From: a virus
Strand: one strand, 5' to 3'
IMG/VR virus record: IMGVR_UViG_3300010371_000006
Coordinates: 1-58,166 of that record
DNA: 58,166 nt
Below are positions 12,104-53,275 of the stretch, piece by piece. Position 1 is the first letter of the stretch. Each line of letters begins with the position of its first letter. The position numbers and the translations under genes were made by a program. Below the pieces are notes generated by a model. That model worked only from the letters and a program-made list of their open reading frames with translations. It did no database searches and was not told the origin of the DNA.

Positions 12104-12322
12104 GTGAGACTCTGGCTCGGACTCGGGGAACGACTTGGACCCTTCTGGGCCGGAGTCACTCTCCTCTCCACACGCAGGCACAGCAGCATCGAAGACTGGC
12201 CCGACCCCCGAGTGCCAGCGAAGATCAACCCCTGGGCCATGACCTGCGCTGGGGTATTCGTGTTGATCGGGGTGGCTGTAGCCACTACCCTCTTCGTAGC
12301 TTTTCTTGTCCTTCTGCTCTAA
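12104..12322 (+). CDS. Small membrane protein (GTG start)
   Basis: The protein has 72 residues. The last 27 residues are strongly hydrophobic (AGVFVLIGVAVATTLFVAFL), a single membrane pass with a very short outer end. The N-terminal half is amphipathic. Last coding gene of this transcript before the tRNA. Confidence 0.55.
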   Translation: MRLWLGLGERLGPFWAGVTLLSTRRHSSIEDWPDPRVPAKINPWAMTCAGVFVLIGVAVATTLFVAFLVLLL

Positions 12323-12326
12323 GCTA

Positions 12327-12355
12327 TTGACACCTTGGCGCAGAGATGGCATCAT
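12327..12355 (+). promoter_or_regulatory. Rightward promoter of the tRNA region
   Basis: TTGACA (12327-12332), 17 bases, CATCAT (12350-12355). The -35 box is perfect and the -10 box matches four of six. It would drive the tRNA and the structured RNAs after it. Confidence 0.6.
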
Positions 12356-12443
12356 CTAATCATCGCACCCGACGAACGACCCCTTCGGTACATCGGCTGC
12401 GATTGCTCCCTTACCTTCTCCCCCCCGAGGCGAGGGAGTACAA

Positions 12444-12517
12444 TGCGGGATAGAGCAGCTAGGTAGCTCGCCAGACCCATACTCTGGAGGTCGCAGGTTC
12501 AAATCCTGCTCCCGCTA
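12444..12517 (+). tRNA. tRNA-Met (CAT), initiator-like
   Basis: A complete 74-nt cloverleaf: acceptor pairs 2-7, D arm GAGC/GCTC, anticodon arm CCAGA/TCTGG with loop CCCATAC (anticodon CAT at 12478-12480), variable AGGTC, T arm GCAGG-TTCAAAT-CCTGC and discriminator A. Like bacterial initiator tRNAs it lacks a 1-72 pair (T-T) and has A11-T24 in the D stem. Unlike them it lacks the three G-C pairs in the anticodon stem, and position 33 is C where U is nearly universal. CCA is not encoded. Confidence 0.85.
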
Positions 12518-12520
12518 CAA

Positions 12521-12586
12521 GGAACTCCTATCGGCGATGAGCTTGGTCCCACCACCTTACTCATCCACGGAACCGGTAGGAGTTCC
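12521..12586 (+). ncRNA. Structured RNA directly after the tRNA
   Basis: GGAACTCCTA (12521-12530) pairs perfectly with TAGGAGTTCC (12577-12586), and GATGAG (12536-12541) with CTCATC (12560-12565) inside it. At 66 nt it is tRNA-sized with an acceptor-like stem, but it has no T loop or anticodon arm, so it is not a normal tRNA. Confidence 0.5.
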
Positions 12587-12603
12587 GTTCCATGTTACCC
12601 CTA

Positions 12604-12667
12604 GGGCCATCAGGACGCTGACATATGGGAAAGCCGGCAGGCGAGCGGTTCGAATCCGCGAGGCCCA
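12604..12667 (+). other. Degenerate tRNA-like sequence
   Basis: GCGG-TTCGAAT-CCGC is a good T arm, and GGGCC (12604-12608) pairs with GGCCC (12662-12666) as an acceptor stem. The interval is 64 nt and lacks a clear anticodon arm, so this is a decayed or highly reduced tRNA, or an unrelated RNA that mimics one. A short hairpin, CATCAG/CTGATG, follows at 12672-12687. Confidence 0.35.
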
Positions 12668-12724
12668 CTACCATCAGGAGCCTGATGAGCGAGATCTAAC
12701 CTTGCGTCTACACTACCAGGCCAT

Positions 12725-12753
12725 TTGACGGACCTGTACCTGGCCCCTATAGT
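12725..12753 (+). promoter_or_regulatory. Rightward promoter of two mini-genes
   Basis: TTGACG (12725-12730), 17 bases, TATAGT (12748-12753), 45 bases before the small gene at 12798. Confidence 0.65.
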
Positions 12754-12797
12754 TATCTTATCGCCCCTACGCAGGGGGCCGAACTAGGAGGGGCGCC

Positions 12798-12899
12798 ATG
12801 AACGGTACCTCTGCCGGCATAATATCGCCTGCCAACGGCGCGAAGGTCGTGAGGAGCCCGTTGGCAGGGACGACCACCACTCTCACGACGGCCCCATAG
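12798..12899 (+). CDS. 33-residue peptide
   Basis: A short frame (MNGTSAGIISPANGAKVV...) with a strong AGGAGGGG ribosome site at good spacing and a promoter just upstream. It is Thr/Ala-rich without a membrane span or cysteines. Support is context and translation signals only. Confidence 0.5.
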   Translation: MNGTSAGIISPANGAKVVRSPLAGTTTTLTTAP

Positions 12900-12952
12900 G
12901 GGTTACTGCCACCTCCCCGTACGGTCTGCAGCAACTTCATGAGGGTGACACC

Positions 12953-27415: not shown

Positions 27416-28474
27416 CTACAGTTGCAACGCAGCGTTGGTCTCCTTGCCCGCGACCCCGTCGGCCTTGAGCTCAGCCGAGGTCTGGAAGTGGACGACCGCG
27501 TCGTGAGTCAGGTGGCCGAAGTTCCCATCCACCTTGAGACCGTAGCCGTGCAGGGCGTTCAGCCGAGTCTGCAGCCACTTCACCGCTGAGCCAGTGTTAC
27601 CCTGCTTCAGCTGCGGGCGAGTCGTGTCGTAGATCAAGTTCAGCTTCTGCCAGGTGACCGGGCCAACGACCCCATCGTCCGCAATCTCCGCCGCGTGCTG
27701 GAAGACGATGATCGCGTGCTGGGTGTGAACCCCGAGATCATCGTCCACTTGGAGTGTGGGGGAGAATGGCCAGCGGTTGAGCTGGATCTGCACCTGCTTG
27801 ACAGTGGCCACCCAACCGTGAGGGATCGCCGGCAGATGCTGGGGCGGTTTCGGAACTGTGGGCGGGGTATCCCACACCACATTGGCGTCGGCCGCGTCAG
27901 CGTCGACGTGCTGCCCACCCACGATCGCGTTGCTCGTGAACTGCAGAATGTCGGGCTTCTTGTTGCCGTACTGGTTCCAGCCGGCGAAGCCATCGCCCGG
28001 ATACAGCGACGAGGCGTAGCCGGGGGCGTTGGTCGGGTAGTCGCTGGCGATCAGGTAGCGGATGCGCAGCTTGGACAGATCGGGCGAGCCGATCTCGACC
28101 CATCGCCAGTGGGGCAGGTAGAGGTCGACAGCGTCGAACTCTTCGGTGTGGGCCGCCTCGACATGTTCAGTCAGCTCGGCCAGGTTACGAGCGCCGCCCG
28201 TCTCCTCGTCGAGCATGCACTCCTTGACGTTGGGACCGACGATGTGGCGCAGGTACTTCATCTGCGCGTCGCCGTCCTCCAGCGTGCAGTAGTGGTAGGG
28301 AATCTCATGGAGGCCGCCGGGGTTCGCTGCCCAGGTGGCGTAGTAGGGATCGACGTAGTTAGTGCCCTGCGTGGCCTTGACGTAGGCGAACGCGAAGCCC
28401 TCGCCATGAACCTCAGATAGGTTCATTCCCTTCTGATACGAGGCTATATCCACCCCGTACATCTTCGGTGCCAT
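27416..28474 (-). CDS. Endolysin: GH25 muramidase with two peptidoglycan-binding domains
   Basis: The protein has 352 residues. GH25 fold at about 1-205: YGVDIASYQ at the start, FAYVKATQGTNYVDP, the acidic catalytic strand MLDEETGG and YLIASDYPT. Two PG_binding_1-like repeats follow (about 222-285 and 292-352), each with DDLGVHTQHAIIVFQ- or GNFGHLTHDAVVHFQ-type motif. It cleaves glycan chains of the host wall. There is no signal peptide, so it needs a holin; a holin-like gene precedes it with a 62-base overlap. It is the last gene before the late terminator. Confidence 0.9.
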   Translation of the reverse strand: MAPKMYGVDIASYQKGMNLSEVHGEGFAFAYVKATQGTNYVDPYYATWAANPGGLHEIPYHYCTLEDGDAQMKYLRHIVGPNVKECMLDEETGGARNLAELTEHVEAAHTEEFDAVDLYLPHWRWVEIGSPDLSKLRIRYLIASDYPTNAPGYASSLYPGDGFAGWNQYGNKKPDILQFTSNAIVGGQHVDADAADANVVWDTPPTVPKPPQHLPAIPHGWVATVKQVQIQLNRWPFSPTLQVDDDLGVHTQHAIIVFQHAAEIADDGVVGPVTWQKLNLIYDTTRPQLKQGNTGSAVKWLQTRLNALHGYGLKVDGNFGHLTHDAVVHFQTSAELKADGVAGKETNAALQL

Positions 28475-52280: not shown

Positions 52281-52430
52281 TCAGCTGTGCTTGAAGCCTC
52301 TCGCCAGACTAGCGCAAGCTATGGCGCAGGTCACCAGCGCCACCGACCAGGCCCAGCTGCCACCGTAGGCGCCGGCGAAGATCCCAGCGCCCGTGTAGAC
52401 GCAGGCCATGATCTTGAGGGCTAGGTTCAC
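52281..52430 (-). CDS. 49-residue membrane protein
   Basis: It starts at a GTG that overlaps the ThyX stop (GTGA). Two hydrophobic stretches (LALKIMACVYTGAGIFAG and AWSVALVTCAIACASLA) make a likely hairpin in the membrane. Function unknown. Confidence 0.6.
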   Translation of the reverse strand: MNLALKIMACVYTGAGIFAGAYGGSWAWSVALVTCAIACASLARGFKHS

Positions 52431-53275
52431 GGTGCGACCCTCCCGTACTGCTGGAACGCCCGCCACGTGAACTGCATGTGCTGACCGAGGAACTGCTCCA
52501 TCGCCCGAGCCACCTGCTCGATCTCAGCCTGCGGCTTGCTCGGGTAGGCTGCCGACGGGGCCGAGGTGCGCAGGCTCAGGAAGTGCATGAGCGACCGGGC
52601 GTTGCAGGTGGCGTACATGGAGCTGTAGATGCCGACCGGCAGCACCGTGCGGGCGACCTCGCGAGCCACCCCGGCGTTCAGCATCTTACGGTAGGCGCGC
52701 CAGGCGACCTCGTAGGCGACGTGAGTGGCCTCAGTCACCGCCAGCTCCGTCTCAGGCGTGCCGTGTGTCAGCTCGTAGTGACCGGACTTGCCGATCTGCA
52801 CGAGCTTACGACCGACCTCAGGCACCCAGAAGTGAGGCTGCAGCTCACGGTACCGTGCCGACTCCTCGTTGTAGCTCCACCCCACACGGTGGCGGTGGAA
52901 CTCGCGCATCACGAAGACCGGCGCGGTGATCAGAAACGTGAACTGGTTGTGCTCGAACGGCGAGCCGTGACGGTTTCTCATCAGGTACTTGATCAGCAGC
53001 TCGCTGGGCTGGTCCTCGACGTAGGTGCCCGTGTCGGCACCGAGCGTGCTCACCCGGGCGGCGGCTACGACCATGTCGTCCGACGCGTTCACCGCCACCA
53101 GCTGCACGTGCATGTCGCTGTCGTACCGGATGTCGTACACCGGCACCGGATAGCCCTGCTCGTCCTGCTTGTGATGACGAGGCGTGCCTCCCGGCAGCCA
53201 CACGGTCGCCGAGTCACCCGCCTCGAACTGCTGGGGCGGATCGATCGGCGTCTCTCCCAGTACGTTGTCGTTCAA
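52427..53275 (-). CDS. thyX: Flavin-dependent thymidylate synthase ThyX
   Basis: The protein has 282 residues. The signature FHRHRVGWSYNEESARYREL lies near residue 131-150, with eight residues between RHR and S where the textbook motif has seven. AGVAREVARTVLPVGIYSSM and NARSLMHFLSLR are the conserved C-terminal parts. It makes dTMP from dUMP with methylene-THF, FAD and NADPH. It is expressed from the late operon, away from the other nucleotide genes. It relieves the two TS-fold enzymes at 20-22.5 kb of dTMP synthesis. Confidence 0.9.
   Translation of the reverse strand: MNDNVLGETPIDPPQQFEAGDSATVWLPGGTPRHHKQDEQGYPVPVYDIRYDSDMHVQLVAVNASDDMVVAAARVSTLGADTGTYVEDQPSELLIKYLMRNRHGSPFEHNQFTFLITAPVFVMREFHRHRVGWSYNEESARYRELQPHFWVPEVGRKLVQIGKSGHYELTHGTPETELAVTEATHVAYEVAWRAYRKMLNAGVAREVARTVLPVGIYSSMYATCNARSLMHFLSLRTSAPSAAYPSKPQAEIEQVARAMEQFLGQHMQFTWRAFQQYGRVAP

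Follow-up and report, generated by a model that had tools for sequence, protein, structure and literature searches.

A phage-encoded initiator-like tRNA is present in a 58,166-base IMG/VR virus contig, the whole length of which was analysed (the window). We consider it reasonably probable, judging from the sequence, that this tRNA was recently gained and works in ordinary translation initiation. It carries cytosine at position 33, and the distribution of C33 indicates that this is an unusual but workable variant which is not unique to the phage represented by the contig.

A tRNA of initiator type

ARAGORN called a tRNA-Met(cat) at 12444-12518 on the plus strand and the Rfam model RF00005 also detected it (59.9 bits, E 1.7e-10). 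The tRNA, at 12444-12517, is intact, with the anticodon CAU. At minimum energy it folds into the full cloverleaf (z = -2.06), and the match is therefore not due to chance; no other tRNA was found in the window. The acceptor (UGCGGGA/UCCCGCU) has pairs 2-7 intact and U1·U72 unpaired, the D stem (GAGC/GCUC) contains A11:U24, that is, purine 11:pyrimidine 24, and the T arm (GCAGG-UUCAAAU-CCUGC) is followed by A73. Every stem is fully paired apart from the initiator-specific 1-72. CCA is not encoded, UACAAG being found instead. The bases and the two programs thus bear out the first-pass annotation, which had described a phage-encoded tRNA with a CAT anticodon, no 1-72 pair, A11-T24 and an initiator-like body. 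The unusual bases are located in the anticodon arm:

12471-12487, plus strand: anticodon arm CCAGA-CCCAUAC-UCUGG, tRNA positions 27-43

The loop consists of C32, C33, CAU, A37 and C38. The cytosine at position 33 (base 12477), reported previously, was confirmed, and C38, in a position usually occupied by A, is a second unusual loop base, absent from that earlier description. The site of the initiator G-C triplet is occupied by A29-U41, G30-C40 and A31-U39; the three G-C pairs had been described as missing, and the triplet is indeed incomplete, but one of the three (G30-C40) is kept.

The known determinants of formylation are an unpaired 1-72, G2-C71, C3-G70, G4-C69 and A11:U24, and all of them are present in the sequence of the contig tRNA. 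These features are shared with bacterial tRNA-fMet, as are CAU, the TTCAAAT T loop and A73, whereas C33 for U33, C38 for A38, the single anticodon-stem G-C pair out of three and the unencoded CCA are differences. Judged by CAU, the lack of a Watson-Crick 1-72 pair and A11:U24, the tRNA is of initiator type and probably functions like an initiator; it lacks U33 and the three consecutive G-C pairs 29-31/39-41. Since these pairs have been termed universal in initiators in a review (PMC4611024), we refer to it as initiator-like and not as a full member of the class.

Initiator-type tRNA-Met of Clavibacter phage CN1A, Mycobacterium phage Myrna and Streptomyces phage Wakanda have an initiator-like body and are 81–85% identical to the contig tRNA over the tRNA. 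Unlike the latter, all phage tRNAs of this group that were compared base by base have U33. Myrna and Wakanda encode many tRNAs each, whereas the contig phage encodes one. The CN1A gene (KF669650.1, 50113-50184; 3001-3077 of contig L360), with the loop CTCATAT, lacks a tRNA annotation in its record. The CAU anticodon, being common to initiator, elongator Met and Ile2 tRNAs, would equally suit an elongator tRNA for Met, or an Ile2 tRNA modified with lysidine, that only resembles an initiator. We regard such an identity as very improbable in view of U1·U72 and A11:U24; moreover, the Wakanda elongator Met tRNA, encoded beside the initiator of that phage, has a pyrimidine at position 11 and a different body.

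The noncoding unit around the tRNA

The genes for the polymerase, helicase, exonuclease, tail, portal and terminase lie on the minus strand of the contig. The closest named phages, as judged by the polymerase, infect Curtobacterium, Microbacterium, Streptomyces and Gordonia, and the host is therefore likely to be actinobacterial. The contig also encodes a ThyX thymidylate synthase (52427-53275) and a GH25 lysin with peptidoglycan-binding domains (27416-28474). The tRNA is contained in a noncoding stretch (12323-12952) and is on the plus strand, in the following surroundings:

12104..12322, plus strand: 72-aa ORF directly upstream of the noncoding unit, with a similar reading frame at the matching place in contig L003
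12327..12355, plus strand: sigma-70-like promoter TTGACA-17-CATCAT preceding the tRNA; L003 has identical hexamers, equally spaced, at the syntenic position
12362-12403 and 12404-12440, plus strand: two leader hairpins in the interval between promoter and tRNA (fold, z -4.12)
12521..12586, plus strand: long hairpin immediately following the tRNA on its 3' side (fold, z -4.80)
12604..12673, plus strand: tRNA-like element with a 5-bp acceptor, GACG-loop arm, T arm and ACTACCA tail
12725..12753, plus strand: second promoter-like site TTGACG-17-TATAGT, opening the next rightward unit

The first promoter is separated from the tRNA by 88 nt. L003 is the closest relative of the contig (polymerase 80% identical) and possesses a similar upstream ORF, the same promoter spacing, a counterpart of the long hairpin and the tRNA-like element; the tRNA is absent. 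The hairpin counterpart (about 17855-17776, minus strand) differs in its stem bases, yet these still pair, and TCATCCACGGAAC and GTTCCATGTT are common to both; a search of the viral contigs for this hairpin found it elsewhere in L003 only. No match to the tRNA was obtained in any of 11 records of relatives with polymerases 52–80% identical, some of which are fragments. It therefore appears to be a specific recent gain of the contig lineage, probably inserted into an older noncoding unit.

The same absence from all 11 relatives would be expected of a functionless relic or a neutral hitch-hiker from recombination with a drifting anticodon arm, and this arm does depart from the consensus at several places. 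However, all stems are paired except for the initiator-specific 1-72, and the tRNA sits behind a promoter common to L003; we consider a relic unlikely.

The tRNA-like element has homologues in L003 (about 17922-17854, minus strand), L401 (about 432-361, minus strand; the same contig as L392) and L402 (about 3325-3252, minus strand). In the four related phages it is compact, combining a 5-bp acceptor, an invariant GACG loop, a variable arm and a canonical T arm; several stem positions vary on both sides with pairing kept. AUGGUAAAG follows the GACG-loop arm in three of the four elements, and three of four end in CCA or CTA. Neither ARAGORN nor the Rfam tRNA model called the element, for which only weak tmRNA T-arm matches were obtained. 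It is apparently previously undescribed and possibly represents a new RNA family.

Position 33 in viral and bacterial initiators

A scan of viral contigs for the C33 initiator-like core, with a pattern fixing A21-G26, G30, C32, A37, C40 and AGGTC, retrieved at least 120 stretches in a sample that depends on scan order. When any base was allowed at position 33, 115 of the 120 stretches listed were new loci, all with T33, and five were already in the C33 set, so that C33 accounts for ∼4% of the viral initiator-like tRNAs among the matches listed (5/120; 95% interval 1.4–9.5%). Matches of L124, L125, L126 and L128 to the pattern GGGCCNYCAGGACGCTGRCAT were chance-like, with no T arm following. The 17-nt anticodon arm of the contig tRNA was found to be identical in L045 only, among the viral contigs compared. 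The base at position 33 comes from a single record and might be a sequencing or assembly error; at least 120 further stretches of viral DNA carry C33, and L045, an unrelated contig, has the identical arm, which makes this scarcely credible.

A single lineage of C33 phage tRNAs was rejected: C33 is scattered among U33, and clustering is weak at most, the nearest neighbour having the same position-33 state in 0.56 of cases versus 0.50 in shuffles (p = 0.057). Among the matches listed, the full G-C triplet is present in 34/107 C33 and 27/114 U33 phage initiator-like tRNAs, and 68–76% thus have incomplete triplets; a weak anticodon stem is therefore ordinary in these tRNAs. C33 is associated neither with loss of the triplet (p = 0.23) nor with an altered position 38 (p = 0.18). 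Of the 107 viral C33 cases listed, 97 have A38, so there is no general linkage between C33 and C38.

C33 is also found in elongators: 16/183 calls in the contigs of the C33 sample versus 7/302 in those of the U33 sample, some of which may be false. The excess is significant per tRNA (p = 0.0018) but marginal when counted by contig (9/30 vs 4/41, p = 0.059), and is driven in part by L005. In this contig (3300036820_000009) C33 elongators number six of 28, in addition to a C33 initiator; in L226 (3300031576_000001) they number four of 36.

The C33 core is not a phage-only trait, since bacterial chromosomal C33 initiators were found. A scan of GTDB retrieved at least 116 stretches, and the matches listed include Weissella, Leuconostoc, Convivina, Erysipelotrichaceae, Saccharibacteria, other Patescibacteria, Elusimicrobia and Phycisphaerae. 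In the genus of Weissella halotolerans, 27 of 28 genomes matched, with C33 in 51/51 matches, and BLAST searches with the Weissella tRNA detected only C33 copies in two genomes of the genus (G001 and G002). Two complete Phycisphaerales chromosomes (G006 and G007) have one C33 initiator each and no other initiator detected by BLAST. On this sequence evidence, there seem to be living bacteria that depend entirely on C33 initiators to start translation. As the sole initiator type found in the Weissella genus and the two Phycisphaerales chromosomes, these initiators indicate that C33 is compatible with ordinary bacterial initiation. The initiators of Weissella, Leuconostoc, Erysipelotrichaceae, Saccharibacteria, Elusimicrobia and Phycisphaerae resemble the contig tRNA in C33, CAU and A11:U24 but are chromosomal and keep A38; those of Weissella also retain the full G-C triplet, unlike the contig tRNA. 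Eukaryotic cytosolic initiator tRNA has C33 in vertebrates, although it differs from the contig tRNA in its paired A1-U72, full G-C triplet and separate origin.

In Actinomycetota, the probable host phylum, 328 of 397 genomes contain the T33 core. The C33 core occurs in one of the 397, the genome chosen as centre of the sample, where it is found beside a T33 core and on a contig encoding phage-family proteins. The contig tRNA differs from Actinomycetota initiators, those of the probable host phylum only, at positions 33, 38 and 39.

A probable role in translation initiation and possible nuclease evasion

The first-pass annotation took C33 and the weak anticodon stem as marks of a special function. 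For the two features as such this is not supported, in view of the phage triplet counts and of C33 in Weissella and the two Phycisphaerales chromosomes; as a whole, a special function is only partly supported. The suggested tuning towards leaderless mRNAs gained no support. An obvious ribosome-binding motif is missing before some ORF starts in the contig, and GTG or TTG serves as start codon in several, as might suit an initiator specialised for leaderless or non-AUG starts; however, 20 of 33 checked ORFs, many of them unconfirmed, are preceded by a Shine-Dalgarno-like motif of at least 4 bases, weak motifs included, and all starts in Weissella are served by C33 initiators alone. Such a specialisation seems highly unlikely.

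According to the ordinary-initiation reading that we favour, the tRNA would be transcribed from the 12327 promoter within the noncoding unit, processed by host enzymes and completed by host addition of CCA. It would then be charged with Met and, since 1-72 is unpaired, formylated, and would be used in the ribosomal P site, topping up or replacing the host initiator pool during infection. We infer expression, charging, formylation and function alike. The cloverleaf with initiator hallmarks, the promoter syntenic with that of L003 and the bacteria relying on C33 initiators count for this reading; the retention of only one anticodon-stem G-C pair out of three and the occurrence of C33 in elongators count against it. 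C33 might be tolerated because an initiator escapes A-site decoding, but given the C33 elongators, tolerance restricted to the P site is not the whole story. Protection against host anticodon nucleases may be an incidental benefit of C33.

The main rival reading, a possible one, makes such evasion the cause: C33, C38 and U39 would have been selected in a nuclease-resistant stand-in for a host initiator cut during infection. Initiator tRNA is a substrate of enteric VapC, which cleaves it at A38-C39, and also of leptospiral VapC (PMC4105405); the enteric site is C38-U39 in the contig tRNA. Phage tRNAs with altered anticodon loops have been proposed to evade anticodon nucleases (PMC10264068), and here loop positions 33 and 38, together with position 39, are non-canonical. 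The higher frequency of C33 elongators in contigs with C33 initiators and the U33 initiators of the probable host phylum point the same way. On the other hand, C33 is the normal chromosomal state of initiators in Weissella and others, and C38 shows no general linkage to C33. We hold this explanation to be tentative and rather less than probable.

C33 initiators in bacteria or phages were not described in the literature searched, which covered few subscription journals. To our knowledge, U33 is regarded as nearly invariant outside eukaryotic initiators. The natural bacterial and phage initiator-like tRNAs reported here break the U33 rule, the G-C triplet rule (PMC4611024), or both, and in one genus, Weissella, no U33 initiator was found. 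It is conceivable, though improbable in our estimation, that U33 is replaced time and again in phage tRNAs, initiators and others alike, yielding a tRNA set immune to those host nucleases which depend on U33; the contig tRNA would add C38-U39 against VapC-type initiator cutting, and the host-side counterpart would be found in the C33 initiators of bacteria such as Weissella. The wider C33 pattern is more interesting than the single contig tRNA, and the organisms that display it allow direct tests of what position 33 does in initiation and of whether it contributes to escape from anticodon nucleases.
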